64,000 nucleotides of DNA from positions 5,652,001 through 5,716,000 of the forward strand of contig NZ_CP027657.1 in assembly GCF_003008615.1 (NCBI RefSeq), given 5' to 3'. The notes under the pieces were generated by a model. The model worked only from the letters and a program-made list of their open reading frames with translations, ran no database searches and was not told the origin of the DNA. The translations under genes were made by a program, and so were the position numbers. The stretch comes from Pseudomonas mendocina (lineage in GTDB: Bacteria; Pseudomonadota; Gammaproteobacteria; Pseudomonadales; Pseudomonadaceae). Positions 15,755 to 46,808 of the stretch are shown one piece after another; position 1 is the stretch's first letter; every line of letters starts with the position of its first letter.

Positions 15755-17728
15755 TCACTTCGGCATCGGCCAAATCTTCAGCGCGGATGCAAACAGGCTG
15801 TCCGCCCGCGCCACGATCTCGTCCTCATCCCAAGCATCATTGTCGCCATAGCGCTGGAAGTGGGTGTTGAGCATCAGCAGGCTGGTTGTCACGATCTCCT
15901 GCCGTTTGACAGCAAAGGGCTCGTTGCTCAGAGAGGAGTTGAAGGCCTGGGTCACTAGCGTGAGGTTACCGATGCTGTGCAGCAGGCGGCTGCGCTTTTC
16001 TTGGTTCTCCGGGGTGTCCTCTGCCAGCGGCCAGTTCGTTTGCCACTTCTGCGGCAGCACATGCTCCACGGTCAGGCCGTCGGGGAGCACCAGGCTCTCC
16101 TGCTTGCTGCCGCGCATGGACAGCTCCAGTGCTTCGAGAACCGCGCGCACCTTGCCGGTATTACGGCCCTGGTAGAGGCCACGATGGCACCAGTTGCGGG
16201 CAAAGGTCTCGTCATCCGGCCAGCACTGGCTGTCGCCCTGCAGGGACAGCAGCTTGCTGCGAAGGGTCGCGGCATCGGTCTTCTGCTCGCGCACCATCTC
16301 CGCCAGCAGGCGGTTGAGGAAGATACGGTTGTAGCTCTTGGTGGTGTAGCCACAGATAAAGCGGCGCACCAGGTAAGACTCCAGGTCGCCGATGGCCTGC
16401 AGAAACTCGGCGGAATCCGGCTTATCGTGCTCCAGCAGGTACAGCACCAGCGGCGTCACCGTGGACACATCCAGCAGCTTCAGGCGTCGGCAGAACAGAT
16501 CGAAGCGGCTCCCCTGCCCCGGCAAGATAAAGGTCTGGAAATAATCCGCCAGGTGCGTGATACGAGCCAACTCGCGCTGGGTGTCGCGCGGCTCGTCCTG
16601 CCACCAGCCCTTGAACTCGTTGAACACGTGGGCGACCTTCAGATCCTCGCACTTGCGCATACCCACGTAGTGGTACAGCAGCAGATCCAGGCGCGAGTTC
16701 TTCAGGCGGCCCTGCCGCTCCTGCTGCTTCCAGAACTTGGCGCCCTTGCCGGTGCTGGTGTCCACCGCCTCGTCGAAGTGCTGCCAGCCCTGGCGATACA
16801 GCTCATCCACGTCTTCGCCGTTACGTGTGGCGTGGAGGAAGATGAAGTTGCGGATGAGGTCGCTCGGCAGCAGCGGTGCGCCCCGGGCATTGAGGGTTTC
16901 GAAGATGATCTGCGGGTCGTCCTCGTCCTCCAGCTCCAGCGACATGATCTGGAAGCCCTCGCGTAGCGTCGCCAGCAGCGCATGGGCGCGCTCCACCTGC
17001 AGCGGCAGGTCGGCGCCCGGCAGTTTCAGCTGGTTGTCCGCGTCGATGGAGCGAATCACCGCATGGGCCACGGCGCGCTCTGCATCCGCCGCGGCGCCCG
17101 GCAACAGGTCATCGTAGCGCAGGCCACGCAGGTGGCAGGCCAGCATGGCATGGAAGAACAGGTAGGCACGCACCATCGCCGGGCGTTCCTGATACTGCCG
17201 ACCAACCTTGGCCGGGAAACGCTCGCAAACCTTCTCCGCGCTGCCCAGCTCGGCCAGCGCTTGCATCACATCGCGGCCGACATTGGTCGGCAGCACCTTG
17301 AGCGAATCGCTGCTCTGACGGTACTTACCGATATTCTGCGTCAGCGGCTTGAGGTCGTAGCTCAGCGCCTCGTCATCCAGCGGCGCCGCCAGGTCGCGAA
17401 ACGCCAGCAGCAGGATCTGCAGGGTGGTGATGCGCTGCTGGCCGTCGATCACATCGCGGTTGCCCACGGCATCACTGCTGCCGCCCTTGAGGCTGCCGAT
17501 CACCACGGTGCCGAGGAAGTGCCGGCGTAGCGGCCTAAGCCGGCCAGCCCCGACCATGGTTGTATCGGCCTGATGCTGGACAATAGCCTCCAGGCGGTCA
17601 ACGAGGTCTTCCCAGAGCGGCTGCACCTGCTCGTTCAGCGTCCACACGTAACCGCGCTGGAACAAGGGGATCAGGTACTGCGCGCGCTCGGTAAATAGGT
17701 CGATGACGGCTTTCTTGTCGGGACGCAT
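15755..17728 (-). CDS. GmrSD-family DUF262/DUF1524 type IV restriction-like nuclease
   Basis: A 657-aa single-chain protein of the GmrSD/BrxU class. The N-terminal DUF262 (GmrS-like, ParB/Srx-fold NTPase) shows IPLFQRGYVW near residue 18-27 and IDGQQRITTLQ near 99. The C-terminal DUF1524 (GmrD-like HNH nuclease) shows VEHVLPQKW near 556 and HSIGNLTLV near 585. Members cleave modified, often glucosylated-hydroxymethylcytosine phage DNA, and others act in phosphorothioate-dependent defence (SspE). The gene lies immediately upstream of zorA on the same strand with a 43-bp gap. Just upstream is a scrap of an hsdS gene, so this unit may have replaced a type I restriction locus. The substrate cannot be read from sequence. 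Confidence 0.88.
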   Translation of the reverse strand: MRPDKKAVIDLFTERAQYLIPLFQRGYVWTLNEQVQPLWEDLVDRLEAIVQHQADTTMVGAGRLRPLRRHFLGTVVIGSLKGGSSDAVGNRDVIDGQQRITTLQILLLAFRDLAAPLDDEALSYDLKPLTQNIGKYRQSSDSLKVLPTNVGRDVMQALAELGSAEKVCERFPAKVGRQYQERPAMVRAYLFFHAMLACHLRGLRYDDLLPGAAADAERAVAHAVIRSIDADNQLKLPGADLPLQVERAHALLATLREGFQIMSLELEDEDDPQIIFETLNARGAPLLPSDLIRNFIFLHATRNGEDVDELYRQGWQHFDEAVDTSTGKGAKFWKQQERQGRLKNSRLDLLLYHYVGMRKCEDLKVAHVFNEFKGWWQDEPRDTQRELARITHLADYFQTFILPGQGSRFDLFCRRLKLLDVSTVTPLVLYLLEHDKPDSAEFLQAIGDLESYLVRRFICGYTTKSYNRIFLNRLLAEMVREQKTDAATLRSKLLSLQGDSQCWPDDETFARNWCHRGLYQGRNTGKVRAVLEALELSMRGSKQESLVLPDGLTVEHVLPQKWQTNWPLAEDTPENQEKRSRLLHSIGNLTLVTQAFNSSLSNEPFAVKRQEIVTTSLLMLNTHFQRYGDNDAWDEDEIVARADSLFASALKIWPMPK

Positions 17729-28631: not shown

Positions 28632-30550
28632 TACACATCCTCCTTGATGACAGAGCTAAAGCTGCGTGCCAGCTGGCCAAAGCGCAGCGCTGAATTCAGC
28701 GAGTGAGTTTCCGCACTGATCCCTGCGTCATCAAGCAGCTGGCTCATGGTGTCTGGGCGGTCGGTGTAAACCACAACTCGGTCAACCCCCATGGCCTTGA
28801 TCGCCGCCACCGCATCTTGGTTGCCGCTCGGGCATACCACGGTGGCTGCGTTGTCGCTGGTGCTGACGATCCAGGCAGCTGAGTCTCCCGGTAGACGGGC
28901 ATGGCCCGTTTCACGCAAGCAGAGCAGGTTGTAGGCGTGCTCTGCCGTGGCATCAAACATCAGGTCGGCTTCTTCGACCTTTGCCAGCGTGAGGTAGACG
29001 AAGTCACCCCCCAGGCCTTCGGCTTTGCCATAGCCGGTCATTACGCGGCGAATGCGCTCTGAGCATACGTCACGGCACAGGTTTTTGGCCGGCTCTTTTG
29101 GAGTTGCCTCTGTGCTGGAGCACAGAATAAATTTGCGGTTGCCACCATCCTCTGCGTTCAGTGCCAGCACGGCATGGCCTGTGGTGCCTGAGCCGGCGAA
29201 GAAATCCAGAATGGTGTCACCCGGTGAAGATGCCTGCGCCAGAAGCCCTTGTATAAGAGATGCTGGTTTGGCGTAGTTGAAAATCCGACTGCCAAAAATT
29301 TGCGCAAGCAGGCTAGCACCTTCTTTGTTAGTTGCGGAAACCAGACAGCTCTCTGCTTCGTAAGTCCCCTCTTCAAAGGTAGGGACAATCCAGCTTGATA
29401 AAGGCTGTGTTGGGTTACGCAAGTCGGACTTAAATCTCTTGAATTGAGGCCTCCCAAAGCCGACAGGTATACCTACCCAGCTTTCAATATCAGGTAATTC
29501 ACGCCTTAGAATTGGGGTTTTATTACTCTTCGGCACATCCCCCTTATCAATGGCATCAAGTAGGTCATCGAGAGTTTCCCAGACGACAACCCTCTGCTCT
29601 TGCGGAAATATTATTTGGCGAAGCCTAATAAACTCGTCCATGCTTTTTGCTTGCAGAGTTTGCCCAGGTTTTAAGCGTGCCTCGCTGGCATACACCCAGA
29701 CGCGATCAGGGTTAGCGGGGTAGTAGATCCCTGTTTCAGGATCCATGAGCGGGTAATAAAGATTGGGGCGATCTTTGTAAGAAAAGCCAAGAGTCAAGTC
29801 GCTTGCACGCCAATCACCGCGTGAGTCGCCATCTGGATTTCCATACATGTCATAGCTTTTTTCGAAGCCATTAAAGGAAAACGCATCATTTCCATAGACA
29901 AGAATATGTTCATGATCCACCGACATGAAGCACTGCTGATCAGCGTTTGACCCCTGACGAGTGCGCCACACGATAGAGCCCAATCTACGCCCTGGCATCA
30001 CCTCGTCCATCATCAACTCAAGCCGCGAGCGGTTTTCATCGTTTATGCAGATCAGGATCACACCATCAGGGGTGAGCAGATCACGCGCTAGCGTCATGCG
30101 CTGGCACATGAATTCAAGCCACTTGGAATGGCGCCAACGATCGTCCTTGTTGACGTAATCGTCGTTGTAGACCCAATCCTTGTTGCCGGTGTTGTAGGGC
30201 GGGTCTATCAGGATGACGCGAATCTTGCCAGCGTGAGTGGCTTTGAGTAGGCGCAGCGAGTCGAAGTTATCGCCTTCGATGATCAGGTTGCCGCTGCTGG
30301 TGCTGCCATCGGTGAACAGTGAAAGGCTCTCGTCAACCTGTGGGAGCACCATGTTGGCGTTCAGCGCCGAATCGCGCTCGATCAAGTCTGCCTCCCACAC
30401 CAGGCCGAGCTTTTTGCGGGTCAACTCTTGAACGAGGTAGCGTTTCAATTCTTGTGCTGTAAGTGTATCCAGGCGAGAAAGTAGATCGCTTTTGCTGGGT
30501 GCGGCCACGAAAAAATCCTTGAACAGTTCATGTGTGCGTAAATGGCACAT
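28631..30550 (-). CDS. Type III DNA methyltransferase Mod subunit
   Basis: A 639-aa N6-adenine methyltransferase of the beta class. The catalytic DPPYNTGN lies at about residues 115-122, ahead of the AdoMet-binding ILDFFAGSGTTGHAV near 448. The region between (about 190-410) is the expected target-recognition domain. Its sequence around 29280-29960 has lower GC than the flanks, as often seen for exchanged recognition domains. It is the first gene of a mod-res operon. The recognition site cannot be read from the sequence. Confidence 0.92.
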   Translation of the reverse strand: MCHLRTHELFKDFFVAAPSKSDLLSRLDTLTAQELKRYLVQELTRKKLGLVWEADLIERDSALNANMVLPQVDESLSLFTDGSTSSGNLIIEGDNFDSLRLLKATHAGKIRVILIDPPYNTGNKDWVYNDDYVNKDDRWRHSKWLEFMCQRMTLARDLLTPDGVILICINDENRSRLELMMDEVMPGRRLGSIVWRTRQGSNADQQCFMSVDHEHILVYGNDAFSFNGFEKSYDMYGNPDGDSRGDWRASDLTLGFSYKDRPNLYYPLMDPETGIYYPANPDRVWVYASEARLKPGQTLQAKSMDEFIRLRQIIFPQEQRVVVWETLDDLLDAIDKGDVPKSNKTPILRRELPDIESWVGIPVGFGRPQFKRFKSDLRNPTQPLSSWIVPTFEEGTYEAESCLVSATNKEGASLLAQIFGSRIFNYAKPASLIQGLLAQASSPGDTILDFFAGSGTTGHAVLALNAEDGGNRKFILCSSTEATPKEPAKNLCRDVCSERIRRVMTGYGKAEGLGGDFVYLTLAKVEEADLMFDATAEHAYNLLCLRETGHARLPGDSAAWIVSTSDNAATVVCPSGNQDAVAAIKAMGVDRVVVYTDRPDTMSQLLDDAGISAETHSLNSALRFGQLARSFSSVIKEDV

Positions 30551-31464: not shown

Positions 31465-31982
31465 ATGAGTGGAAAACCAGCAGCTCGCGTTACTGACCCA
31501 ACGGTCTGCCCACTGCCAGGCCATGGCACCAACCCCTCGCTGCCGGCTCGCCCAACGTCCTGTTCGACGGTTTGCCTGCAGCTAGGCAAAGCGATATCTC
31601 CGCCTGCGGGAGCCCAATCGCTTCTGCAGTAGCCTCCACTGTATTCATCAATGGCTTGCCAGCAGCCACGCTGGGCAGCGTTGGTGATCACGGCAATGTG
31701 ATCATCGGCGGCTCAGGAACTGTGTTGATCGGCGATGCCTCGGTCGTGGCAGCTTTTACGCCACCGGTGCCACTGAACAATATTGCATCCCCCTTCTCCG
31801 GACGTTTCCAATTGATCGACCAAGAAACGGGCAAGCCCGCAGCCGGCCGCAAGGTCAAGGTCTGGTCGAGTGGCGGATGGAGCACCCTGGAGACCACAGA
31901 CGCAGATGGCATGACCTCTTGGGTCAAGCACGACGCTTCTGAAAGCCTGCATATCGACCTAGTTCAGGGAGATGGGCAATGA
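31465..31982 (+). pseudogene. PAAR-domain type VI spike protein, frameshifted
   Basis: The ATG at 31465 has AAGGA upstream and opens MSGKPAARVTDPTVCPLPGH, a clear PAAR start, but this frame stops at 31632. From about 31540 the continuation (GSPNVLFDGLPAAR, then FINGLPAATLGSVGDHGN and VIIGGSGTVLIG) is read in another frame to 31982. A single missing base near 31533-31542 explains this; family members read NP-I/V-xx-GSP here. PAAR proteins cap the type VI VgrG spike and carry effectors. The C-terminal 70 residues form a transthyretin-like beta extension (GRFQLIDQETGKPAAGRKVK). Either a genuine mutation, disabling delivery of the downstream effector, or a sequencing error. Confidence 0.85.
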
Positions 31983-32686
31983 GTGATCAACCCGGCCTGT
32001 CACGAGGCGGTATGAGCCCCACTGGCAAGGTCAATCCAGTCGGTGTGCTGGAGCCCAAGCTCGGTCCGCAAGACAAGAACGTGCTGTGCTCAGCAATCTG
32101 TTACTGCAGCAGCACACCCAACGTCAGCCAGGACGGCAAAAATCTCAAACAGTCCTGTGTCGCCCAACGACTCGATGAGCTCAATGAGGTACTTCAAGGG
32201 CGCAGCCCCTACCGGCCGGAAGTCAGCTACGACATGACCAAGAACCCGCCGCAGCCCATTCTCGACAGCCAGACGGGCAGCAGCGCTCACGGCTGGATAC
32301 CGGGGTGGATCAGCAAGTACTGGAATGATGACCCTGAACATCCGCCCTTCAAACCGGGCAAAGGGATGATTCGCCGACCTGACGTAGTGATCGTCAAAGA
32401 TCCGAACAAGCCGCCGACCCAGGACAATATCAAGCAGGTGGTGGAAATGAAGTTCCCACCAGATCAACGCAATGAGAACCAGGCAAAAGCCTACGGAAAG
32501 ATTGCAGGCGATGAAAACAAAGTGGTCGAGATGCAATCGACTGACTGTGACTGTAGTCAGGAAAATCAGCAGTCCAAGGTACCTGTCGAGCAGATGGGCT
32601 GGGCTGCCGCCGCAGCAAGCGCTCTAATGTATCTCCTGACACGTGGCAAATCCCCACGTCCGCCGTTACCAGCACCTGCTTACTGA
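31979..32686 (+). CDS. VRR-NUC nuclease, probable type VI secretion effector
   Basis: A 235-aa protein overlapping the PAAR stop by four bases (ATGA). The nuclease core is RRPDVVIV near residue 131, then VVEMKFPPD near 153 and a QAKAYGKI helix, a VRR-NUC-type PD-(D/E)xK pattern with D, ExK and Q in order. The N-terminal third has a cysteine group (CSAICYCSS). Near the C-terminus is a hydrophobic helix (GWAAAAASALMYLL). VRR-NUC type VI effectors are known to break DNA of competing bacteria. The PAAR gene upstream and the DUF3396-like gene downstream support this role. Confidence 0.78.
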   Translation: MSDQPGLSRGGMSPTGKVNPVGVLEPKLGPQDKNVLCSAICYCSSTPNVSQDGKNLKQSCVAQRLDELNEVLQGRSPYRPEVSYDMTKNPPQPILDSQTGSSAHGWIPGWISKYWNDDPEHPPFKPGKGMIRRPDVVIVKDPNKPPTQDNIKQVVEMKFPPDQRNENQAKAYGKIAGDENKVVEMQSTDCDCSQENQQSKVPVEQMGWAAAAASALMYLLTRGKSPRPPLPAPAY

Positions 32687-32701
32687 TTTCGAGGAAGAAC
32701 C

Positions 32702-33787
32702 ATGGCACAACCATTCGATCTGGCCGAGGAACTGAGCAAGCAGCCACACCTCCTAGAGATGCCGGGTAATCTGCTGATGAAGGGAGGCCCGGAAGACTAC
32801 ATAGGTGCGGTACTCTGTATACGAGGCACGCTGTATTTCAAGGGTGCGCATACACCCTTGGTTCGCGAGGCGATCTGCCAATGCTTCGATGCATTCAAGC
32901 AAGAAGCAGAACCTCATCTAACCTGGCTATGGCGTGAAGAGCCACCACAGGGCAAGCCATTAACCGCATACGGAGAGGCCAAGCCACTTCGCGAGATGAT
33001 TGCGGCAATGGATGAGGACGACAATCTCAGCTTTTGCTACACCAGCGGCAAGCAAGCACGTGACGCCAGCGCTTGGCTCTTTGATGTATTTGGCTCTCGT
33101 GGCTGGGAAGCGAAGATGGGGGATGACCTTAGCGTTCTGGAGTTCTCCGTACCACTGCTTTTCCAAGAACAAAATCCACTGCGCTTCCTGCACTTGTTCC
33201 TCGACTTTGCGCGCCGACTAGCCCCGGAGCAAGGCTATGCAGGACACGCCTTCAACCTATCGCCGACCAGTCGAAGCAGCAACGAACCCACTGAGGCCTT
33301 TATGGCTGGTCGTATGCCAGGCCTCGATGTCGGCACTGCGGCTTTGCTGGCATATCGCCCACAATTCAAGCCTACCAAGATCAAGACGGTTAGTTGGCTG
33401 ACATTGCTCGATCATGAGCGCCTGGAGCAAGTGGGCGGGCCAGACGCGCTGCGCACGAAACTGCCGTCCAGCCATTTTGCTTTCTACGACTATGGTGCCG
33501 GCGTGGTGATTCAGTCCGGGGCTCACCCATCAGGCGGGGACGGCGAGGATCCGAAACCAGCGGCTTATGTCCTACTGAACCATGCGCTCAAAAGTATCCG
33601 TTACGAAAGCGTTGGTTCACTACATGGGGGCTCACATGATGGTGAACTTCGATTGGTGGGCTGGTCGGCAGATCAGTGGCTCAAACGTCTGGACGTAGAT
33701 GATGGTGATCTCCCCAGCTGGCACGACAAACTACTCAGCAGCGAGCCCTATCTAGACACAACCAACACCCTCCCTGAGCGCTTATAA
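32702..33787 (+). CDS. DUF3396-like immunity protein for the VRR-NUC effector
   Basis: A 361-aa cytoplasmic protein, 15 bp downstream of the effector gene, with GAGGAAGAACC before its ATG. It has no signal peptide or membrane segment. The central parts (VLEFSVPLLFQEQNPLRFLH, RLAPEQGYAGHAFNLSP and FYDYGAGVVIQSG) look like DUF3396 proteins annotated as type VI immunity family. Such proteins bind and neutralise the cognate toxin in the producing cell. The assignment rests on order and family character. Confidence 0.72.
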   Translation: MAQPFDLAEELSKQPHLLEMPGNLLMKGGPEDYIGAVLCIRGTLYFKGAHTPLVREAICQCFDAFKQEAEPHLTWLWREEPPQGKPLTAYGEAKPLREMIAAMDEDDNLSFCYTSGKQARDASAWLFDVFGSRGWEAKMGDDLSVLEFSVPLLFQEQNPLRFLHLFLDFARRLAPEQGYAGHAFNLSPTSRSSNEPTEAFMAGRMPGLDVGTAALLAYRPQFKPTKIKTVSWLTLLDHERLEQVGGPDALRTKLPSSHFAFYDYGAGVVIQSGAHPSGGDGEDPKPAAYVLLNHALKSIRYESVGSLHGGSHDGELRLVGWSADQWLKRLDVDDGDLPSWHDKLLSSEPYLDTTNTLPERL

Positions 33788-33985
33788 AGCGCTCTGCAGG
33801 GCGTATAAATGAAGATCAGCAAGATCTTGCCAGACGCAGAATAACTGGGAATGAACCATAAACAGGCCTTGACTGCTGGAGGGAGTCGAAGACAGGTTCG
33901 ATTCCCTGAAGACACCTCCGTCTGCTCGCCGCCCCTGCCGTACGAGAAACGGCTAAGCAGAGAGGAGGCAACGCGTCTACCCTAG

Positions 33986-35557
33986 CTACATTTGGTGGTC
34001 GTACCGGGAGATTTTCAGCATGTAGCAGACGTAGTCCAGCTTTTCTTCGGTCGGCTCATCATCACGCAGCCAGCGGATCTTAATGTCCAGGTACTGCGCC
34101 CACTCAATGCCCTTCTTGAAGCCACGGCGATCATCATTTTTTGCCGCAACCTCGACGTACTGGTTCACCAGTTTGTATTGGTTTTTTCCTGCCCGGTACT
34201 TGGCATTTTCAAAGGCCGCCTGAAAGTGTGGCATGGCGGTCTTGAACTCCTCTTTACGATAGTGATAGACCCCACGCAACCAGGGCACCATCCAGCACAG
34301 TTGCTCCTCCAGGCCGTAAGCAGCTACCTGATCGGCATACGCGTCAATGTGGCCCACCTGGGTTGCCGGGTCACTCTTGAGCTCAAAACCCTGATACAGC
34401 AGCTCGACAAAACCGTGGGGCGGAAGAAATGCTGACTGCCGCTGAGTGAGATCTAAAAGAGAGCACACGGCAAAAAGGCCGTACTTACTCTTGAGCGCAG
34501 CGAGCACATCGTCTCGAAGTGGCACTCCCGGGCGAGCGTCCTTGAGCCGCTGCACAGTGTCTGTGACAGCAGCCAATTTGCTATCGAAGAATGCCCAGTA
34601 ATCACTGCAGGCGTTAAGCCACACAAACGGGGCCGACTCTAATGATTTTTGACGCTGCATCACCGGAGCCATCTCGGCCTTGAACTCGTTTACGTCATCG
34701 TTGATCCACAGGGCGTAATCACGGAATTGGTTACAGACTTCGGCAAGATACTCATGATCGTAGGCGTCAGTAATTTCCCTCGCGAGATAGCTCGAAACCC
34801 GGGCAACCATCAATGCCACGAGGGTGCTGGCCTGAAGATCTTTGGGCATCTCTCGCCCACTTTGCGCCAGCGCGGCGAAGGATTCTTCGAAATTTTTAAA
34901 AAGGGCAGGTAAAGCCGGAAGTCTTGCGCCTCGCGTCCACTTGATGGCGTTATCGAGGTTCTGCTGAAGCATATTGTTGTCGCTACGCGGATTCTTGCCT
35001 GGGTAGTGGAACTGTGTCTGCGAGAGATCACAGCGCGCATATACCCAGCGCATGACCTTTTCCAGAGGCATTACCAGGCAGCCATCTTCAGCGACTGTCG
35101 GCAGGTACCAGAATGCGTCCTCCGGCGTTTCGAGCGCCAGGTCTGCAAGTCTGTGTTCGAGCAGGCTCCGATTCAACGACACGACAAGCAAAGGGATTGC
35201 CCTGATCGAGATGAAGTACCGTAGAGTTTCTGCCTTGCTCAGGTAGGTACCCTCTTCGCGAACCAGCCGGCTGTAGACATCAAGCAGATCATCAAGCGGA
35301 TCGCCTATGGCACTCATGACCTGGATGCTGGGCAAGTACGCAGTCAGGATGCTACTGAGCGTTTGAATCACCTGTCCGAAATTCGACAGCAGCCCGCCTT
35401 CTTCTTTGGCTAGTCTCGCCAATTGCTTTTGAATAGTCTTCTTCTGCGTCTCATCGATGTCGTCATGGCTGGCTTCCTTGCGGGGAAGCACTCCGAATGC
35501 ATCGTAGGCCAGCTTGACCAGCTCGCCCTGGGCGGCAAAGCAAGTATCTCTACTCAT
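33986..35557 (-). CDS. Unknown 523-aa helical protein, last gene of candidate cassette
   Basis: I do not recognise this protein. It appears mostly helical. The C-terminal part (MVPWLRGVYHYRKEEFKTAM, then PHFQAAFENAKYRAGKNQYK) resembles tetratricopeptide-like helical hairpins. No signal peptide, membrane helix, nucleotide-binding or nuclease motif is visible. It lies 48 bp downstream of the 51-aa Asn/Gln-rich gene and on the same strand as the PLD nuclease and NYN genes, so it may be part of one operon. A sensor or scaffold role is possible but speculative. Confidence 0.75.
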   Translation of the reverse strand: MSRDTCFAAQGELVKLAYDAFGVLPRKEASHDDIDETQKKTIQKQLARLAKEEGGLLSNFGQVIQTLSSILTAYLPSIQVMSAIGDPLDDLLDVYSRLVREEGTYLSKAETLRYFISIRAIPLLVVSLNRSLLEHRLADLALETPEDAFWYLPTVAEDGCLVMPLEKVMRWVYARCDLSQTQFHYPGKNPRSDNNMLQQNLDNAIKWTRGARLPALPALFKNFEESFAALAQSGREMPKDLQASTLVALMVARVSSYLAREITDAYDHEYLAEVCNQFRDYALWINDDVNEFKAEMAPVMQRQKSLESAPFVWLNACSDYWAFFDSKLAAVTDTVQRLKDARPGVPLRDDVLAALKSKYGLFAVCSLLDLTQRQSAFLPPHGFVELLYQGFELKSDPATQVGHIDAYADQVAAYGLEEQLCWMVPWLRGVYHYRKEEFKTAMPHFQAAFENAKYRAGKNQYKLVNQYVEVAAKNDDRRGFKKGIEWAQYLDIKIRWLRDDEPTEEKLDYVCYMLKISRYDHQM

Positions 35558-35605
35558 CTGAAATCCTTGATACCCCCGGCCAGTGACGACCGGGGGAGCG
35601 CACTC

Positions 35606-35761
35606 CTAGCGCTGGTTAGGGTTGAGCTGTTTGCCGCGATTGCCATGAACGTGGGCATTAGTCGGATTGGTGCCCGACGTGCCACGATTATTGTTCAGTG
35701 CATCCGATCTGTGGTTCTGCTGCTGGCGCTGCTGATTGGTGGAGCTGGGTTGCTTGGACAT
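35606..35761 (-). CDS. 51-aa Asn/Gln-rich small protein
   Basis: CAGGAG is placed seven bases before an ATG that opens MSKQPSSTNQQRQQQ and ends GNRGKQLNPNQR then TAG. The protein is rich in Asn, Gln, Ser and Arg, hydrophilic, and probably disordered. The ribosome site, compact size and tight position between the 849-aa and 523-aa genes support it as real. Similar short NPN-ending proteins are seen in other bacteria without a known function. Confidence 0.65.
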   Translation of the reverse strand: MSKQPSSTNQQRQQQNHRSDALNNNRGTSGTNPTNAHVHGNRGKQLNPNQR

Positions 35762-35887
35762 GACTGTCTCCTGCGGGGTGGTTAGGAAGTCGCATCCTAG
35801 CCAGCCGAGTCAGCGCGGTATCTAGGCTTTTTGGAGACGGACTTTCAGCCCAATACTTGTATCGTCGCAAACCAACGGGAGCCCTCC

Positions 35888-38437
35888 TCAATTCAGGGCG
35901 TAACTTGTTGACTGTGCCGGCATCAGCGCGACAACCCTGTCACGCTTAAACTTCCGTACGTCATCAAAATCCCAAAAGCCAACATAATTCTGATCAAGTT
36001 CTACGATGACCCTAGGCTCATCATCCAAGCCAGGAATATTGCAGTATCCACCAAGCTCAAACTCGCTGGCCTCCTCCTGCCTCTGCAACCAAGAGGAACC
36101 ATAGGCCAGATGCAAGCCTAGCCAATGCTCAGCCTGAACTGAGGCTTTCGGAGTTGGCTTGAGAGTTCGCCGAATGCTATCGCGCAGCTCTGCACTGGCA
36201 TCCTGGTCTGCCGCAATCGACGGCATCAGCCTCAGGAACACCGCATTCGTCTGCAATCTTTGGCGTTTTTCGTCGGCATCCCACATTAAGCTAACCTTAG
36301 CCGTCAACTCATCACCCAGATCCCAAGCGAGCCACACCAGTAAGGTACGAAGCTGCATCGTCTCATCAGCATCGTCGTCAATCGTATTGTCGATCACTTC
36401 GAGCAGACGCGACTCCGAACCGAGCAAATACCTGATGCTTTCATCAAACAGATAGCGACGATCCCCCTCTTCCACCAGATCCTGCCCGGTTGCTCGCCAG
36501 CGCTTCTGCTTATCGAGATGGCGCAGCTCACGAATCAAAGCCAGCACCGCAATCAGCTGGATCGACGCACTGACTTTCCTTGTCTCGTCTTGACTGGCCA
36601 GCTTCAATTGCTCAACCATTTTTCTACTCAACGCCCTCGCCTTCCTGGCAACGGCCTGGGCAATTTCAGCGTCGGTGAACTGGGGCTTCTCGACAGTATC
36701 GCTTGTCTCTTCGCCACCATCGTCCTCCTGGCCAACCTGTTCCTCTTCGCTCCGCCCTGCCCGATCTACCTCGACACTCCGCACCTCGATAGCATCGTTG
36801 AGGCGTCGCATGAGCACATCGATCAGGTACGCCAGATCACCGGATTTCAATACACGCTGCTTGCGCTTCATCCAAGCCATGTCGCTCACGCTGATCACCA
36901 GCGATGTCGGCCCGTCCTCAACTGGAAGCCCATTCTTTTTATTCCGGCATTCACGGATCGCCATCTGAATTTCGTGATCGGACTGCTCCGCGAAAATCAC
37001 ACGCTCAACGCTGGCGATGACCCTCGATATATCTGCCTCAGTCGAGCCCAGCTCACTTAGCGCCAAACGAATCTGGTACTGCCTGGAAGATCGGGAGTTC
37101 GACTCAATGACAGATGGATGTAGGATCATTGCCCTAGCAATCGGCCTGTCGCCCTGCACCAACAGGCAGGAGCGGATGTCTGTCGCCTCAACCTTGGTCC
37201 TGAACACAATCTCGTCTTCATTTAGTTCCAGTGGTGCAAGCGTCTCCAGCATCTCCTGGTTCGGCCCAAGCAGTTCGGCTGCAGTCACTGACATCTGCTT
37301 GCTCCGATAGCAGATACGTATCAGGCCGCGATCCGCATCTGAATAGCCCGAAAGCAGTGGCAACGATGCTGGCTGTTCAATCTCGATAGCTTCACTGCGC
37401 ACCTGGATAGTGGCGAACGCCTCCGGCGGCAACTCAGGCAACTCGAATAGGCTTAGCATCGAAGTGGCCTCAGCAGCACGTCGGGCGGCACTGCCTACCT
37501 GAAGTATTATGGCCTCAACATTTCCATTCGCAGCGTCCATCCAGGCAGGACGACTGGGGTTTGCACTACCACTGACAAACACATCAGCCTTAGCACCATG
37601 TGTTTCAAAATAGAGCACCTTGGCATGCAGATAACCGGCCCGCTCGGCAATCACTCGCGCATCCACATACCGAACGATTTCGTCGTCATAGCTGCCGGGA
37701 TGATGGACCGAGTCGGGATCAATGCCCACCACGATATCTGCGCTGGGCCAGCGGGCCTTCAGTTCCTTGAGCAGAGCCAGCTCCCGATCGAAGAACGCCC
37801 CCAGTACCGCAACTCTCGCGACCGGGGCTGTAATCCGCTCAGCAAGCTGATCAATTAGCGCCGGCCCTCTCGGATCTTGCGCCAGCACAGCAGGCAACCC
37901 CATGTCTCCGGCTGAGGCAATCAAAGGGCTGATGAAGCGGCCTATTACCAGCGCTGACGCCAATAGAGGCTCAGGCGCCTTGCCGCGCTCCAGCTCGATC
38001 CAGTCACGGAGCATCAACCAGACCGCCTTGAGAACGGCGGTACCCTCACCATCCTTGGCACCACCAATTTCGATCCAGTTGGTGATTTCGCGGTTGAAAC
38101 CGAGCCCCGACAGCGTGAGATTGTGACTGCCGATCAGAATCGATGCCTTCTTTGCCCCAAGCAACAGACAGACCTTCGGATGAAACGCACCGCTCACGCC
38201 AATCGGCAACAGCGTGTAGGCATGACCAGCCAAACGAGGCCGGGCCACCTGGCTTTCCCATGAAGCTGCACATTGGCCCCGATCCATCAGCACCACGTTA
38301 TGACGGCATCCGGCTGCGACCAGCTTGCGCAGCAGAACCTCTTCGTAGAAAGGCAACGTCGCATTGAAGGTGGTGATCAGCGAGGCCTCGTAACCACCCC
38401 GTTTGATCACTTCAAGAAGGGAAATGCCGTCAGACAC
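35888..38437 (-). CDS. Phospholipase D-family nuclease-like protein
   Basis: An 849-aa protein. Two PLD-type motifs are visible: FHPKVCLLLGAKKASILIGS then HNLT at about residues 83-106, and LHAKVLYFE with FVSGSANPSRPAW at about 269-300. Each has the H-x-K of the HKD site followed by an S/GxN element. This is the arrangement of PLD nucleases that cut nucleic acid without metal. The remaining 550 residues are unknown, with an acidic stretch near 575-590 (EEEQVGQEDDGGEETSD). The gene overlaps the upstream 547-aa gene by eight bases, so the two proteins are probably made together. A defence nuclease is the likely role. Confidence 0.75.
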   Translation of the reverse strand: MSDGISLLEVIKRGGYEASLITTFNATLPFYEEVLLRKLVAAGCRHNVVLMDRGQCAASWESQVARPRLAGHAYTLLPIGVSGAFHPKVCLLLGAKKASILIGSHNLTLSGLGFNREITNWIEIGGAKDGEGTAVLKAVWLMLRDWIELERGKAPEPLLASALVIGRFISPLIASAGDMGLPAVLAQDPRGPALIDQLAERITAPVARVAVLGAFFDRELALLKELKARWPSADIVVGIDPDSVHHPGSYDDEIVRYVDARVIAERAGYLHAKVLYFETHGAKADVFVSGSANPSRPAWMDAANGNVEAIILQVGSAARRAAEATSMLSLFELPELPPEAFATIQVRSEAIEIEQPASLPLLSGYSDADRGLIRICYRSKQMSVTAAELLGPNQEMLETLAPLELNEDEIVFRTKVEATDIRSCLLVQGDRPIARAMILHPSVIESNSRSSRQYQIRLALSELGSTEADISRVIASVERVIFAEQSDHEIQMAIRECRNKKNGLPVEDGPTSLVISVSDMAWMKRKQRVLKSGDLAYLIDVLMRRLNDAIEVRSVEVDRAGRSEEEQVGQEDDGGEETSDTVEKPQFTDAEIAQAVARKARALSRKMVEQLKLASQDETRKVSASIQLIAVLALIRELRHLDKQKRWRATGQDLVEEGDRRYLFDESIRYLLGSESRLLEVIDNTIDDDADETMQLRTLLVWLAWDLGDELTAKVSLMWDADEKRQRLQTNAVFLRLMPSIAADQDASAELRDSIRRTLKPTPKASVQAEHWLGLHLAYGSSWLQRQEEASEFELGGYCNIPGLDDEPRVIVELDQNYVGFWDFDDVRKFKRDRVVALMPAQSTSYALN

Positions 38438-40073
38438 TGGCGGCCTCCATCTGCATCCGACCAGAATCAGTCAGTCTGGTCATGTGGTTGTCATCACGCG
38501 CAAGCATTCCAAGGTCGCGCAAGATCTGCAATGCCTGACGGAAACGAGGTGTAGTCTGGGATGGTGGTGGAACCTGATCACCCACCACCTCAAGTCCTCT
38601 CTCGGATGGCCGCAAATGAAAAGTCGAGCGGTTGGACTGCCGGAGCTTACGCAACGCCACTCGAAGATGGCTGTCTAGACACCAAACGACCAGATCGACA
38701 ACTACATGCTTGAGAGGCATCGTCTGCCAGTCGGTACTTCGGCTACGGAAGCTGACTAGGTTGATCGGGTAGTCCCTGAGTCCCTCAAGAGTGATCGCCA
38801 ACCCTAAATACGGCTGTTGCCCAAGATCATCTCGAGCAACAAGCATTGCCAGCAGGCTCAAACTACCTGAAAGCAGCCTGGCAACTTCCACGCCCGGATG
38901 CCAGCCATCAATTAACTGCCGCGCCAGCTGGATCTCATGCGCACCGTTTGTCCAGCTAGTCAGTGCTGGGCCATTCGCCCTGCTACTAGCGACCAGATCG
39001 CCGAAACTATCTGCTCCCAGATCACTCAGAACTCCGGCAACCGCTGCCGAACCGCCAAACCAGTCAGCGAACGCTTCGACGCTGTGAAATACTCGCCGCT
39101 GCGCTGCCGATTGCGGTTGCAGTTCCTGCAGACTGATCGCTAGGATCGTCTGGAAAGCCACCGACATTAGGTCATTGCGCACATAGACAGCCCAGTGCGC
39201 ACGAGTAAGCTGCAAGGCATCAGGAATTTCCCACGCCTTGCCATTTGGCAGAGCGGCACTATAGACGCAACCTCGGAACGCCTCCTCGGTCGGACTCAGC
39301 CCCTTCAGGGCTTCCACCATTTGCAGTATCAGCCCCAGGCTTTGACGTCGCTGGGTACCTTCCTCTGAATAGCGGTTGCTAGTATCGAAAAAAATATCAA
39401 TGAGCTGCCGATGCTCGCCCAAGCTTTCGGAGATATTGCAGGCACAGAAGGCGCTCAGATCGTCTAGATCATCTAGCGTCACCGAGTCGTTCTCGACAAT
39501 CTGCCAGAGCCGCTCACTCGGCACCGACGACTCAACGCTCTGCGCAAGCGGTGCCCCATACTGGCTGCTATAGAAACTCCAGGATCGACCGGAAGCCTCC
39601 ATCAGTTGTAGCTCGGCCAGAGTACCCGCGTAGTACTGAGAAAGGCCCCCAAGCCGATTCATGAAGTAGCGCTGGGGCGTTTCCTCAGTCGTCGCGTAGA
39701 GCGATAGCCGTAATTGTTTGCCGACCTTCAGATTGGCAAGTGAGGGAACGAGCTTGGTACGACCGACCATCGCGACGCCGTGTCGCTCGCTGCTGTGGTC
39801 TGTCACCTGCGCATGCCGCTCGGCAATCAGAGTGAACAGACAGTCTGCCCGCCGAAACCGCTCCACGAAGTGGTTATAATCATCCTTCGCATAACGCTGG
39901 TCATATGACCAGACCAACCAGGGATAGAACGAGTAGTATCGCGCCCGATCAGTGACATTGGTAATGCCAGGCAGTAGCTGCCCATAGATCATTACGCAAG
40001 GCGCCTGAGTACCGAGGTGATCAATACCGCCACTTGCATAGGGTGGTTTCAACCAGTTGGTAGTGAGCTTCAT
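38430..40073 (-). CDS. Unknown 547-aa partner of the PLD nuclease
   Basis: The protein starts MKLTTNWLKPPYASGGIDHL and has a recognisable but unnamed block (YYSFYPWLVWSYDQRY near residues 47-62). No membrane helices or standard catalytic motif are visible. The C-terminal 60 residues (RFRQALQILRDLGMLARDD then TRLTDSGRMQ) look like a winged helix. It overlaps the PLD gene by eight bases and follows the NYN gene by 46 bp. It could be the recognition or regulatory subunit of the PLD nuclease. I cannot assign it to a known system. Confidence 0.75.
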   Translation of the reverse strand: MKLTTNWLKPPYASGGIDHLGTQAPCVMIYGQLLPGITNVTDRARYYSFYPWLVWSYDQRYAKDDYNHFVERFRRADCLFTLIAERHAQVTDHSSERHGVAMVGRTKLVPSLANLKVGKQLRLSLYATTEETPQRYFMNRLGGLSQYYAGTLAELQLMEASGRSWSFYSSQYGAPLAQSVESSVPSERLWQIVENDSVTLDDLDDLSAFCACNISESLGEHRQLIDIFFDTSNRYSEEGTQRRQSLGLILQMVEALKGLSPTEEAFRGCVYSAALPNGKAWEIPDALQLTRAHWAVYVRNDLMSVAFQTILAISLQELQPQSAAQRRVFHSVEAFADWFGGSAAVAGVLSDLGADSFGDLVASSRANGPALTSWTNGAHEIQLARQLIDGWHPGVEVARLLSGSLSLLAMLVARDDLGQQPYLGLAITLEGLRDYPINLVSFRSRSTDWQTMPLKHVVVDLVVWCLDSHLRVALRKLRQSNRSTFHLRPSERGLEVVGDQVPPPSQTTPRFRQALQILRDLGMLARDDNHMTRLTDSGRMQMEAASV

Positions 40074-40119
40074 CGACGGCTAATCCCTTACTGCGTAAAA
40101 TCGAAGGTCGAAATCCAAA

Positions 40120-40785
40120 TTATCTAGCGTATCCGCTGATACAGCCCGAGCACATCCACTCACCGTCGTCGTAGATGCCGCCGCTCATGTCGGTACGCTG
40201 GTGACACCAGGCACACGTACCCATCAGCGGCTCATAGCCGTAACTGTCCTTCTTCTTTTCGCGATACTTCGCTTGGCGCGATGGCATCTGTTGTGGATCA
40301 GGCGGGCTGGAGAAATTGCCGCAGTAGCTACACCACTGACCACCCAGGTGCTCCACGCAGCTTAGCTTGCCGCAGCTCTTGCAGGCGTTTTCCAGCGCTT
40401 GCGCTTCTGATTCAGGTAGCTCCTCCAGCAGCAACTCCTCAAGCGCAGCAATACGCTGACACACCAAACCTTTCTTGTTCAGGTAGGCCAGCAGCGGGTC
40501 GAAGCCTTTATCCTTGGAAAGGACGATGCATTGCGTTTCCGGCGCGGTCTCAAAGGTGCGTCCTAACTGAAAGGCGATATGAAAATCCAGCGCGTTCTTA
40601 CCCACCCCCTCAATTTTCTGGAAGTCCACCCGTGAAAAGCGATGCACAGTAGACGGCTTACGCGAGGCTTTGGGCGTGTTCTGCTTGGCCCCCACAAAGA
40701 TAATGGCCCGATAAGAGTTATCAAGCAGCGACAGGTCGACTTTACCGATGTTCTCGTAGTCCACCAGGATCAAACGCCGCGTCAT
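40120..40785 (-). CDS. NYN/PIN-like ribonuclease with zinc ribbons
   Basis: About 221 aa, from MTRRLILVDYENIGKVDLS; an upstream ATG at 40806 is an alternative start, but GGAAG precedes the chosen one. LVDYEN near residue 7, the later NALDFHIAFQLG and LSKDKGFDPLL fit the conserved acidic positions of a NYN/PIN-like RNase. The C-terminal half has cysteine pairs (CKSCGKLSC, WCSYCGN, CAWCHQR and CSGC), probably two zinc ribbons. It starts just after a nuclease remnant and precedes the 547-aa gene by 46 bp. It is the likely first intact gene of the candidate cassette. Confidence 0.8.
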   Translation of the reverse strand: MTRRLILVDYENIGKVDLSLLDNSYRAIIFVGAKQNTPKASRKPSTVHRFSRVDFQKIEGVGKNALDFHIAFQLGRTFETAPETQCIVLSKDKGFDPLLAYLNKKGLVCQRIAALEELLLEELPESEAQALENACKSCGKLSCVEHLGGQWCSYCGNFSSPPDPQQMPSRQAKYREKKKDSYGYEPLMGTCAWCHQRTDMSGGIYDDGEWMCSGCISGYAR

Positions 40786-40812
40786 TTCATCTTCCACATT
40801 CATCAATTTCTA

Positions 40813-41034
40813 TTACCCGCGCTGTAACTGCCAGGCCACCTTGCGCAACGTGTTGCGCACGATGGAGCCAGGACTGGTCAAACGGATATACGCTGATTTG
40901 ATCTCCAAAAGCAGCTCAATGCCATCCAGATGGCAGATCAAGTCCACCTCGCCAGTATCGTCCTCATAGGTCGCCAATGGAGCATGAAAAGCGCCATATC
41001 CAAAGCCTGGAGTGCCCAGGAAATCCGAGGCGAT
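40813..41034 (-). pseudogene. Remnant of a PD-(D/E)xK nuclease C-terminus
   Basis: The minus strand keeps an open frame of about 73 codons with no plausible start: FLGTPGFGYGAFHAPLATYE, then DDTGEVDLICHLDG and IELLLEIKSAYIR, ending WQLQRG and TAA. D...EIK is a PD-(D/E)xK core. An in-frame TGA cuts it off at 41035. It stops seven bases before the upstream alternative start of the NYN gene. It is best explained as the tail of a lost nuclease gene. Confidence 0.6.
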
Positions 41035-41088
41035 TCAGAAACTGAAAGCTGTATCGGCCGATATTTGTAGAAGGGATTGCTCGCGCAC

Positions 41089-41697
41089 TCAGTCATCCAA
41101 GATAAAACCAAGTAAGGAACCGAACGCCGCACCAGCTATGACGAGTGGCAAAGCTGGTGCAATGGCCACACCTGCAGCGCCTGTGAGAGCGACAGTAGCC
41201 CCTCCTGCCAGGGTGCCCACCTTGGCTCCGGCATAACCACCTACGGCAGCCCTACCAACAGCCCGTGCGATGACATGCTCAGTTGTTTTCTGAGTAGCCT
41301 TGCGCGCAGCAAAGGTCGCTACTCCAGCAGAAATAGTTTTTTTGGCGGCTTCCTGCACCTGCTCACTAGATTCCATACCTGTCACGCACCACGTTGCGAA
41401 ATGCTCACAGTTGCTAAAAAGTAAATTGTATTTGGTATTACCAGCTCTGAGCCTGCGGCGTGCACGCATGACGATCTCAGGTGGTGAGTAGACTATTGAG
41501 TCGTAAAGCTTGATCTTGAAGCCATTCCCAGCACAAAAATCTTCAATGCTCGTGCACTCAATAGGGCCTTTTTTGAATGCTTCACTCCAACCCGAGTGAT
41601 GAATTACTTTCCCGAGCCCAACGTAGATTCCATGATGGTCATAACCAAACCTAGGCGAGTAGAGGTGACTACCCAATGGGATGTGATAGGTATCCAT
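41089..41697 (-). CDS. LRAT/NlpC-P60-like protein with glycine-rich hydrophobic tail
   Basis: A 202-aa protein starting MDTYHIPLGSHLYSPRFGYD, with AAGGAGATGAGGTTT before the ATG. An HHGIYVGLGKVIHHSG block at residue 21 onward and a SNCEHFATWC block with Cys near 95 match the catalytic His and Cys of the LRAT (lecithin-retinol acyltransferase-like) fold. The last 80 residues are Gly/Ala-rich and hydrophobic (GRAAVGGYAGAKVGTLAGGA and VAIAPALPLVIAGAAFG), probably inserting into a membrane. Bacterial members may be acyltransferases or thiol hydrolases. Its role in the island is unknown. Confidence 0.8.
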   Translation of the reverse strand: MDTYHIPLGSHLYSPRFGYDHHGIYVGLGKVIHHSGWSEAFKKGPIECTSIEDFCAGNGFKIKLYDSIVYSPPEIVMRARRRLRAGNTKYNLLFSNCEHFATWCVTGMESSEQVQEAAKKTISAGVATFAARKATQKTTEHVIARAVGRAAVGGYAGAKVGTLAGGATVALTGAAGVAIAPALPLVIAGAAFGSLLGFILDD

Positions 41698-42120
41698 AAA
41701 CCTCATCTCCTTCACTGACTGCCAGCGTTCTGCTGAGCAGTCTGTCGGCAAAATATTATGCCGTCCATACAAAAGTGGCGCTTTGCCACCTCAAATGAGC
41801 TACGACTCATAATCTGCTTGAGCCGAAGCTCCGGGTGATTTGGTGTAACAGTTGCAAAGGTAACTTGCTCTGAAGACAAGCTCTGGAAGCAGATCAAGCC
41901 AGCCCGAGGATGCATGTCGGCCTATCCTGTACTCGGCGTTTCCAGGCATGTACACCACCCAACCGACCTGATCGATTGATAACCCCAGAGCACCACACCA
42001 AGCTTCTTCCATACGTGCGATCAAGCCGCGTCTCTCAGTACTTAACAGCCCACGATTAAAAAATCATCCCGGCTAAACAGTGTGAAATCGCATGAACTTG
42101 AACGCATTGCAGATAGCGCT
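41698..42120. other. Stretch between LRAT-like and YfjJ-like genes
   Basis: About 420 bp. A short minus-strand frame (41800-42024, containing VGWVVYMPGNAEYRIG) is possible but has no clear ribosome site or recognised family. I leave it unassigned. Confidence 0.35.
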
Positions 42121-44087: not shown

Positions 44088-45059
44088 ATGAGCAACCCAA
44101 AGATAGACACTTCCGAAATCAAAAAATTTTTTAATATTCCAGAAAGAAATAAAGAGTCATGCACGCCTGGATTCACATGGGATAATGATTCGGACGACAT
44201 GCCGATGGTCACCATCCATGGCAGTAATGTCGAAGAGTTGTTTAAAGAGAGAAAAATCAATACACGCTTCTACAACTTTGCCTGGCTCCACCTCTTCTTC
44301 AATGAACACGCTAACTTCGACGAAGAGAATATTGGCTTTGCAGACTCCACCCTTGCTGATATTGGGAACTTCCTTAACGAAGAGTGCAACGCTCAGGAAG
44401 CAAAAGACCTTGCGCGCATGATCCGCGAAGACTTTCGCAGGCAGTACATTCCAACGGAAACTCTTAACTGGATATCTAGCGCCACTAGGGCTATCAAATG
44501 GTTCAAAGAAAAGATCATCACTATTGATCAAGATAACATACATCGGTTCATCAACCTTAACGGAATGCCCCTTATCCAAGCAATCATTGATCAATGGGGC
44601 GTACGTTCTTCTTTTAAAGTGGACTTTGTCAGTGAGCTTCGAAAGAGATGGGAGGCCAATATCAAATCTGACCATGCGCTGCGCTGGTTAGAAGAGAAAC
44701 CCTTTGCAAAAGAACGACGCGACCTGGCGTGGTATGAACTCTGTAAAAAATATGGAAGTAAGTTCAAAGCAAATAATGCACCTAAAACTCACCAAGATAT
44801 TCTTGAGATCTTTGACCAGCTTGCAGATGAAGGGATCTCTAAAAAGGAATTCATTCGGAGCTTGCAGCTTAAACAGTCCAAGCAGAAGAATGTCGATAAC
44901 GGCAGGAAGCCCAAAAACTTGGACATCCTTCTCAAAAATCATTCGAAGCTCAAAGAGTTGGCAACAATCTGGGAAGTCACTGAGCGCGAGGCTATGGATA
45001 GGCTGATCTCTGAAGCCTTTGAGGAGGAGTTCGGGAAAGGGCAACCTTCGGAAGGCTGA
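44088..45059 (+). CDS. Unknown 323-aa protein, AT-richer than its neighbours
   Basis: A 323-aa soluble, charged protein starting MSNPKIDTSEIKKFFNIPER, with AAGGA before the ATG. It is mostly helical; the last 80 residues are basic then acidic (KQSKQKNVDNGRKPKNLDI then EREAMDRLISEAFEEEFGKG). The Lys/Asn/Ile-rich composition and lower GC than flanking core genes suggest recent acquisition. No known domain is recognisable. A terminator follows 16 bp after the stop. Confidence 0.75.
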   Translation: MSNPKIDTSEIKKFFNIPERNKESCTPGFTWDNDSDDMPMVTIHGSNVEELFKERKINTRFYNFAWLHLFFNEHANFDEENIGFADSTLADIGNFLNEECNAQEAKDLARMIREDFRRQYIPTETLNWISSATRAIKWFKEKIITIDQDNIHRFINLNGMPLIQAIIDQWGVRSSFKVDFVSELRKRWEANIKSDHALRWLEEKPFAKERRDLAWYELCKKYGSKFKANNAPKTHQDILEIFDQLADEGISKKEFIRSLQLKQSKQKNVDNGRKPKNLDILLKNHSKLKELATIWEVTEREAMDRLISEAFEEEFGKGQPSEG

Positions 45060-45671: not shown

Positions 45672-46808
45672 GTGCTCCTGAGCAATACCATTTATTTGGA
45701 GAGTGCCTTGGGACTGCTTGCCTTCAGGGCTAACGGAACGAAAGTCGTATCTATCTACTTGAGCGACGATGAGTGGAAAGCCGAAGCCCTAGATAAGCAA
45801 CGTGACCTCTTCATGCCCGGCACCACGCTGCGAGCAGTCCCGAAGGTTTCAAAACTGGGGCATCGTTTCTTTTCGCACAAGCCTGGCGAGCGCCCAAACG
45901 GAGCCACTGGTTTGGAGAGCGAAGATCATATTGCCCTGAAAGTTCAGGCATTGTTAGCCGCAAAGGAAGCCGGATGGGATGCACAACCAGAGATAGCAGG
46001 TTCGGCCCCAGGCGATAAGCTCTATCGAGCAGATGTGATGTGCTTTCACCCCAACGGCAAAACCAAGGTAGCTATTGAGATACAGCGCTCAAGCCAGCGG
46101 GACGTTGATTATGAAGCCAGACAGAACGTCTATGAAACCGATGGTATCCGTGGCATCTGGATCGACGTATCAGCCAAAAAATACCGAAAGCACATCACCA
46201 ACCCAACGCGTGCGGTGCCGCGCTTCGAATGCAAGCAGCTTAGTCCTGGTGACTATGTAGTTTCGATAAACATGAAGGAAGTACCCTTTCCTGAATTCAT
46301 CCGAGGGGCACTGACGGGGAGACTGCGGTATATGGACTACACCTATCGCTCCAGACTCCAGTACTTTGACGTCCTCCAAGACACCTGCTGGCAATGTGAA
46401 AAGACGATCCGCGTGATCGAGTCTGAATACATCGAATCGCTATTCCAAGAAATGCCAGAAATGCTGCCAGCATTCAACCGTAAGACTTCAGCTCTAAGCC
46501 TGATGTGCAGGGTAAAGCTGATTACTTTCCGTTCTGGTAAGAAGTACCGGATGTGCTGCCCCCACTGCGGAATCGCTCAACGAGAGCCTCACCCGAGCCC
46601 TGAGTTCGAATATCCCTTTGCCATTGCACAAATTGCCATTAGCCGGAATAGCGATGGTCTGTATAGCCGCTTTTGGTCATGGCAGAGTCATCCAAAGCCA
46701 GAGCTAATCCCAGAGCCTGGCCAAATCTACCTGCTCGCTGGGTTTGAGGATGATGACAAGGAAAGGCTAGACGCACTGATTGCAGACCTAAACGGGTGTG
46801 CTTGGTAA
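45672..46808 (+). CDS. CoiA-like competence/nuclease family protein
   Basis: A 378-aa protein with a GTG start and no strong ribosome site. The core YRADVMCF then KVAIEIQRSSQ near residues 118-140 is the CoiA-type PD-(D/E)xK variant (D...ExQ). Before it, VQALLAAKEAGWDAQPEIAG is the conserved helix of the family. The C-terminal half has a zinc-ribbon-like set (CWQCEKTIRVI and CCPHCG). CoiA family proteins are needed for recombination in natural competence in some bacteria; island copies may cut DNA. Standing alone beside the tRNA, it could be a solitary defence gene. Confidence 0.8.
   Translation: MLLSNTIYLESALGLLAFRANGTKVVSIYLSDDEWKAEALDKQRDLFMPGTTLRAVPKVSKLGHRFFSHKPGERPNGATGLESEDHIALKVQALLAAKEAGWDAQPEIAGSAPGDKLYRADVMCFHPNGKTKVAIEIQRSSQRDVDYEARQNVYETDGIRGIWIDVSAKKYRKHITNPTRAVPRFECKQLSPGDYVVSINMKEVPFPEFIRGALTGRLRYMDYTYRSRLQYFDVLQDTCWQCEKTIRVIESEYIESLFQEMPEMLPAFNRKTSALSLMCRVKLITFRSGKKYRMCCPHCGIAQREPHPSPEFEYPFAIAQIAISRNSDGLYSRFWSWQSHPKPELIPEPGQIYLLAGFEDDDKERLDALIADLNGCAW

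Follow-up and report, generated by a model that had tools for sequence, protein, structure and literature searches.

Which of the five closely spaced genes in a defence island of Pseudomonas mendocina belong together, and what might they do? The genes lie in a window of 64,000 nucleotides, which is the whole stretch of DNA analysed (NZ_CP027657.1 of assembly GCF_003008615.1, forward strand, positions 5,652,001-5,716,000), and are called here NYN, A547 (encoding a protein of 547 amino acids, aa), PLD (849 aa), the 51-aa gene, and C523 (523 aa). The initial annotation had taken all five for one candidate defence cassette. Instead, it is A547 and PLD that recur jointly in unrelated bacteria, often beside defence genes, in 52 of 60 loci; recurrence of this kind is the evidence that the initial annotation had named in advance as supportive. 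They probably form, with a chance that we put at about two in three, a helicase-free two-gene anti-phage module sharing its ancestry with ZacA and ZacB of the Azaca system, in which PLD would be the effector nuclease and A547 a sensor or gate.

The open reading frame list confirms the arrangement reported at first: five genes on the minus strand, separated from NYN to C523 by 46 bp, an 8-bp overlap (A547/PLD), 126 bp, and 48 bp. All five frames are regarded as real genes because close homologues exist elsewhere. The features of the locus are as follows.

NYN, 40120-40806 from a TTG start (228 aa) or 40120-40785 from an ATG start (221 aa), minus strand: PIN7-type, RNase-like
A547, 38430-40073, minus strand, 547 aa: first core gene; almost entirely helical, with a ZacA/DUF6361-like motif in the N-terminal part
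PLD, 35888-38437, minus strand, 849 aa, GTG start: second core gene; double-HxK, nuclease-like
51-aa Asn/Gln-rich peptide gene, 35606-35761, minus strand: partner of C523, not of A547-PLD
C523, 33986-35557, minus strand, 523 aa: a unit of its own with the 51-aa gene; a few homologues are named tetratricopeptide repeat proteins at their source
Remnant of a NERD-like gene, 40819-41074, minus strand: left flank of the NYN-A547-PLD block, directly before NYN

The A547-PLD pair and its relatives

Loci with A547 (numbered L) were gathered from a 20-row A547 alignment by scanning GTDB contigs with two peptide patterns, which gave 69 stretches, 60 of them relatives; among 7998 scored candidates, 859 are A547 homologues at E 1e-3. 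The 60 loci comprise 943,590 bases, and their flanks often end at contig ends. PLD was sought next to A547 by a frame-wise profile search. In the 52 loci with both, the PLD-family sequence begins close to where the A547 match ends, from 4 bases upstream of that point to 44 bases downstream, and in 48 of them it spans 800 or more of the roughly 855 positions. The PLD match is cut at or near a contig end in L012, L030, and L042, is reduced to the C-terminal half in L016, and is spread over two frames in L050 and L057; the A547 match of L044 spans 414 positions. The remaining eight loci hold pieces of A547 only, of at most 299 positions, and one of these (L054) lies at a contig end.

The pair is widespread but rare, as the A547 tree includes rows from Pseudomonadota, Thermodesulfobacteriota, Myxococcota, Acidobacteriota, Gemmatimonadota, and Nitrospirota, and A547 occurs in two of 369 genomes of the class (G084 and the window genome, G000) and in three of 149 genomes of the genus, G000 being part of both samples. 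Full-length PLD was found in the same two class genomes, with up to three candidates scored per genome, and ten others gave only short PLD matches, none above 36.7 bits. Nine plasmid records match A547; a PLD gene follows in all four that were opened, and three of these four A547 proteins show 22.7-26.2% identity. No A547 match was found among phage records.

A547 itself has no Pfam match up to E 1, DUF6361 included. In PADLOC, whose 2023 models were used throughout, it has a single weak match to ZacA (E 0.0021, residues 32-75), and no DISARM or PDC model matched it at E 1. In an alignment of 46 rows (the window, 38 loci out of 48 whose frame length was suitable, and seven database proteins), G16, D18, P35, G36, N39, V40, T41, D42, R43, A44, Y46, and W52 are invariant, and the N-terminal part carries the motif D-x-LG, L-x-PG, T-x-R-x-RY, PW, which resembles that of ZacA. 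The structure model is helical (pLDDT 90.5, pTM 0.90) and has no convincing match in the PDB; judged by eye from sequence and model, its C-terminal part looks like a winged helix. With its confident model and no convincing relative found among solved structures, A547 lends itself to structural work.

The presence of two predicted nuclease types, recognized at the outset, is borne out. PLD matches PLDc_2 in Pfam (E 2.4e-6, 27.9 bits with a cut-off of 27), and its two HxK motifs are conserved across 40 rows (the window plus 39 loci, out of 43 whose PLD frame was long enough to be suitable but not too long), with H86, H271, and K273 in all 40 and K88 in 39. According to the structure model, its residues fall into a Tdp1-like part (1-354), a segment of strands (361-439), a stretch modelled with low confidence (about 456-586), a region of helices (589-784), and a C-terminal part that is small and rich in strands. 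With two HxK motifs in one Tdp1-like fold, for which TDP1 is the best structural neighbour, it fits the PLD (HKD) nuclease superfamily. The PLD-type restriction nucleases SauUSI, BfiI, and NgoAVII R are, like TDP1, structural matches that share the double-HxK fold; in contrast to them, PLD has no Pfam-recognised helicase or known target-recognition domain and comes with A547 as a fixed partner instead. The second nuclease type, NYN, is PIN7 in Pfam (PF18475, E 6e-22, over the cut-off) and has two Cys-rich stretches that look zinc-ribbon-like by eye.

The nearest known system is Azaca, composed of ZacA (DUF6361), ZacB (PLD), and ZacC (helicase), with ZacA and ZacB in the same order as A547 and PLD. 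Azaca comes from Millman et al. 2022 and includes a PLD-like domain (PMC10952713), ZacC is an SF1/SF2 helicase (PMC12278908), and Azaca is listed among the systems of a Pseudomonas island hotspot (PMC12629846), so that Azaca proper is present in this genus as well. Within the class sample, ZacA (PDLC03828) was found in seven of the 369 genomes, one at E 1.2e-4 only. Six Azaca loci were fetched for comparison, with ZacB taken from all six and ZacA and ZacC from five each; in one of them (L070), ZacA is DUF6361 over its full length and ZacC is a DEAD/helicase-C protein. Local hhalign comparison paired A547 with ZacA (probability 78.9, E 1.6e-5, 194 columns) and PLD with ZacB (98.2, E 5.5e-14, 281 columns), and the other 18 pairings reached a probability of at most 1.1. 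Run at E 0.01 on frames selected from the window and from the A547 loci, the ZacA profile matched the A547 family only, and every time weakly (28 frames, best E 1.4e-5; 0.0045 for A547 of the window). The N-terminal part of A547 and the core of PLD are, by profile comparison, specifically but distantly related to ZacA and ZacB. There are also differences. A547 is about 120-160 aa longer than the fetched ZacA proteins and PLD about 230-250 aa longer than most of the fetched ZacB proteins. At the window locus, a ZacB-like PLD directly follows A547, but neither a full-length DUF6361 ZacA nor a ZacC in the operon is present. At E 0.01, the ZacC profile has no match among the window frames and finds proteins in two of the 60 loci (L027 and L036), of which that of L036 is far better described as DpdE (2.4e-186 versus 3.4e-15 for ZacC). 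By the features tested, with no ZacC and no DUF6361 call, the pair is not Azaca, yet it consists of the same two kinds of protein.

Likeness to other systems is looser. PADLOC matches of PLD are weak, comprising ZacB (7.6e-9), PDC-M27B (1.2e-7), DrmC (3.1e-5), and DpdK (0.014). DrmC is the PLD protein of DISARM, in which it is accompanied by DrmA and DrmB, and DrmMI-like and DpdE/DrmD-like genes precede A547-PLD in several loci. Among the matches listed for the 26 window proteins, however, there is no DrmB and no DrmA apart from the DrmD/DrmA cross-matches of ZorD. PDC genes, which are PADLOC candidates embedded in other systems, neighbour several A547-PLD loci. The claim that the pair matches no named system thus stands insofar as no PADLOC model names it outright, and has to be qualified by the distant relationship of both proteins to Azaca; likewise, A547 and C523 both lack a Pfam family as had been proposed, but A547 is not without relatives. 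Among the literature matches listed, no title or abstract start was recognised as describing A547-PLD. The pair is not claimed to be unpublished, and it could already be described in a 2024 preprint on embedded defences (doi 10.1101/2024.01.29.577857).

Limits of the block and the 51-aa/C523 unit

The DNA of three Pseudomonadaceae loci (L001-L003) aligns with that of the window at 80.3-86.7% identity, from 40783 or 40781 to 35887. Since these limits coincide with the start codon of NYN and the stop codon of PLD, the three genes behave as a single block. It sits in L001 and L002 between hsdS with a DUF4357 gene on one side and hsdR on the other, and in L003 an hsdR-like start also follows it, without a long frame. 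NYN precedes A547 in these three of the 60 loci, in L078/L096 (G380), and in the window. Among the A547 loci examined, it is confined to Pseudomonadaceae and is an accessory of that form of the module.

On the other side of PLD, the 51-aa gene and C523, neither of which has a Pfam family, form a conserved block of their own (about 33976-35848) that occurs in islands without A547. The five other loci examined (L096, L099, L100, L101, and L102), which represent five of the seven other genomes with C523, all have the 51-aa gene immediately before C523. The two remaining genomes (G421 and G451) have partial C523 matches only. C523 is split or broken in three of the five loci (L096, L100, and L102, in G380, G477, and G514), where the 51-aa frame is open. 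Between the two genes, a stretch that can form a hairpin (35557-35605, minus strand) is also found in L096, L099, and L100; its z of -1.9 against shuffles is only suggestive.

That all five genes act as one system is, consequently, hardly tenable. The proposal can draw on G380, where the gene order is conserved through to the 51-aa gene and C523, and on Pseudomonas sp. C11, which has 97% homologues of A547 and C523. It is already largely refuted by the distribution of the genes, in that NYN is rare at A547 loci and the 51-aa/C523 unit is found in related islands without A547-PLD. C523 is present in none of the 60 A547 loci, and among the 149 genomes of the genus, eight have C523, three have A547, and two (G000 and G380) have both. 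Moreover, A547 and PLD are full-length frames in G380, where C523 is interrupted.

How the two units came to be adjacent may be read from the left flank. In L099 and L100, a NERD-like gene of 716 or 746 aa precedes the 51-aa gene, and the remnant before NYN is 54-56% identical to residues 539-610 of the L099 protein or 569-640 of the L100 protein; a further piece of 12 residues of the NERD-like gene lies upstream of the remnant. The trio of NYN, A547, and PLD occupies, in G000, the site of the NERD-like gene of two related islands, beside the 51-aa/C523 unit. The simplest reading is that the trio replaced this defence-like gene in an island already holding 51-aa/C523, a direction of change that we infer.

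Restriction-modification context and possible function

Neighbouring gene clusters were named HsdR, HsdM, HsdS, DrmMI-like, and DpdE/DrmD-like from their representatives, and restriction-modification (R-M) context was scored at the 57 loci with an anchor, that is, all except L032, L059, and L060. An R-M gene lies in the flanks of 22 of these (13 type I and 9 DrmMI-type) and in the same co-directional run in 16 (10 type I and 6 DrmMI-type). The type I runs include L007 on account of a partial HsdS lying several genes off, and L057 on account of a partial HsdR two genes off. The order in the unscored L032 is HsdR, a 529-aa protein, HsdS, A547, and PLD, and HsdR lies directly upstream in L098. 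Further defence neighbours include PDC-S11 (L041), PDC-S02 with HNH (L033), PDC-S01 (L057), PDC-S06 (L042), and SIR2 with a Dsr1-like protein (L009); other neighbours scanned, for example in L010, L045, and one of two in L042, have no PADLOC match at E 1e-8. HsdR occurs at 11 loci against about 0.35 expected in the same amount of DNA, a roughly thirty-fold excess. The expectation is based on 197 HSDR_N matches in 185 genomes (a sum in which some matches are two pieces of one gene), with a genome size of about 2.9 Mb taken by eye and Gammaproteobacteria standing in for all phyla, and part of the excess comes from the tendency of defence genes to cluster in general. In a quick tree built from 57 A547 rows, which has long branches at L082, L052, and L083, the type I label (12 rows) requires at least eight changes, so the type I association has been gained or lost repeatedly. 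When labels were shuffled among type I and DrmMI rows only, the observed four changes compared with a shuffled mean of 4.6, that is, no clustering.

It is from the fold, the conserved residues, and the overlapping paired genes that we infer an effector role for PLD and a partner role for A547. PLD would be a Tdp1-like double-HxK phosphodiesterase that cuts nucleic acid; DNA is its most likely substrate, and the reaction would most likely need no metal ion. A547, whose 8-bp overlap with PLD suggests coupled translation, would bind PLD and act as the sensor or gate through its conserved N-terminal motif and perhaps a DNA-binding C-terminal part. The module would then restrict invading DNA, or kill the infected cell once the resident restriction or methylation system is challenged, and would be an add-on that has repeatedly become attached to DrmMI-like methylases and type I R-M genes, with a NYN/PIN7 RNase placed in front of it in Pseudomonadaceae. 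That R-M genes are so often nearby speaks for a link with DNA modification, which is not absolute given that no type I R-M is seen in G000. A bolder version, tentative at best, is that of a plug-in nuclease not represented as such in PADLOC 2023, in which A547 reads the state of DNA or of a restriction complex and licenses PLD to destroy DNA, giving two-layer defences with type I R-M or DrmMI and third components chosen by lineage, such as the NYN RNase or PDC genes.

Several observations weigh against the helicase-free module as proposed. The local A547-ZacA match is moderate, its HMMER form spans about 50-90 N-terminal residues, and the probability is only 13 in global alignment, so that just the N-terminal part shows the kinship. 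L016 combines A547 with the C-terminal half of PLD, the catalytic half being gone. Thirty-five of the 57 scored loci, many ending at contig ends, have no such R-M gene in their flanks, and co-location alone is weak evidence because defence genes cluster anyway. The window genome has no HSDR_N match, and no HsdR, HsdM, or HsdS shares a run with the pair at the window locus; the module is there without a type I partner, and guarding type I R-M is therefore not a general role, nor the partner obligatory. The sensor role of A547, which has no fold match, is a guess.

Several alternatives were weighed. Type I R-M loci may carry PrrC, which is silenced by the intact complex and fires on phage anti-restriction attack. 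By analogy, A547-PLD may possibly be an abortive back-up of restriction, silenced by an intact methylation or restriction complex and fired by phage anti-restriction proteins, as would be consistent with co-directional runs with hsd genes on several branches and with the candidate defence genes that share runs with the pair, namely PDC-S11 and PDC-S01 in type I runs and PDC-S02 and the Dsr1-like protein in DrmMI runs. The absence of HSDR_N from G000 speaks against this idea, as does the module flank of G380, in which no hsd gene was seen in a comparison with the window proteins only. It is rather unlikely that the pair is a divergent Azaca whose helicase is encoded elsewhere or supplied by a neighbour, such as ZorD or a 1708-aa protein of the island. 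The shared gene order and the specific similarity to both ZacA and ZacB would fit, and helicases do lie upstream of A547 in some relatives: in L011 a homologue of the 1708-aa protein, at a distance of 27 bp; in L082 an SNF2 protein that matches ZacC at E 3.7e-14, two genes away; and in L027 and L036 a DpdE/DrmD-like helicase. Yet the ZacC profile misses every window frame and reaches only those two of the 60 loci, one of them with far better similarity to DpdE, and the 1708-aa protein lies about 30 kb off in the window. A DNA repair or housekeeping pair, in which PLD would remove protein adducts from DNA as TDP1 does, is very improbable. Its appeal lies in the structural similarity of the PLD core to TDP1, but a common fold shows no function, A547 is rare and patchy in both genome samples and also found on plasmids, and several neighbours are defence genes.

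If the two-gene module of ZacA-ZacB ancestry is the right reading, Azaca would be one branch of a larger superfamily, the core of which is a ZacA-like protein and a PLD nuclease with the helicase being optional, and A547-PLD would offer a test case for why accessory nucleases join R-M genes.

Surroundings in the island

As first described, the genes are surrounded by established defence systems, including Zorya, a type III methylase, an Orf5/SspE-like protein, and a SoFic-like protein. Zorya I (7617-17728, minus strand) gives strong matches for ZorA, ZorB, ZorC, and ZorD and adjoins a 657-aa Orf5/type IV REase/SspE-like protein. Before it, the 1708-aa protein (2417-7543, minus strand) has DpdF/PsyrT-like and GajB/UvrD-like helicase matches, and in addition to the homologue in L011, another lies on the other strand before A547 in L022. 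The type III methylase, a very strong PADLOC match, and an adjoining 899-aa protein occupy 25932-30550 (minus strand), the latter with a weak type III REase match (E 7.7e-5). Between these genes and C523, a VRR-NUC protein is followed by a TsiV-family immunity protein (31979-33787, plus strand), which also matches PADLOC PDC-M20B; the two look like a type VI effector-immunity pair.

On the NYN side, an LRAT-domain protein (41089-41772, minus strand), with an 89% counterpart in G380, lies between a YfjJ-like gene and the NERD-like remnant. Further along are a 323-aa gene (44088-45059) and, beyond it, a 378-aa protein with a CoiA nuclease-like domain (45672-46808, plus strand; E 1.2e-5). The 323-aa gene has a 45% homologue on the same side of the island in G380.
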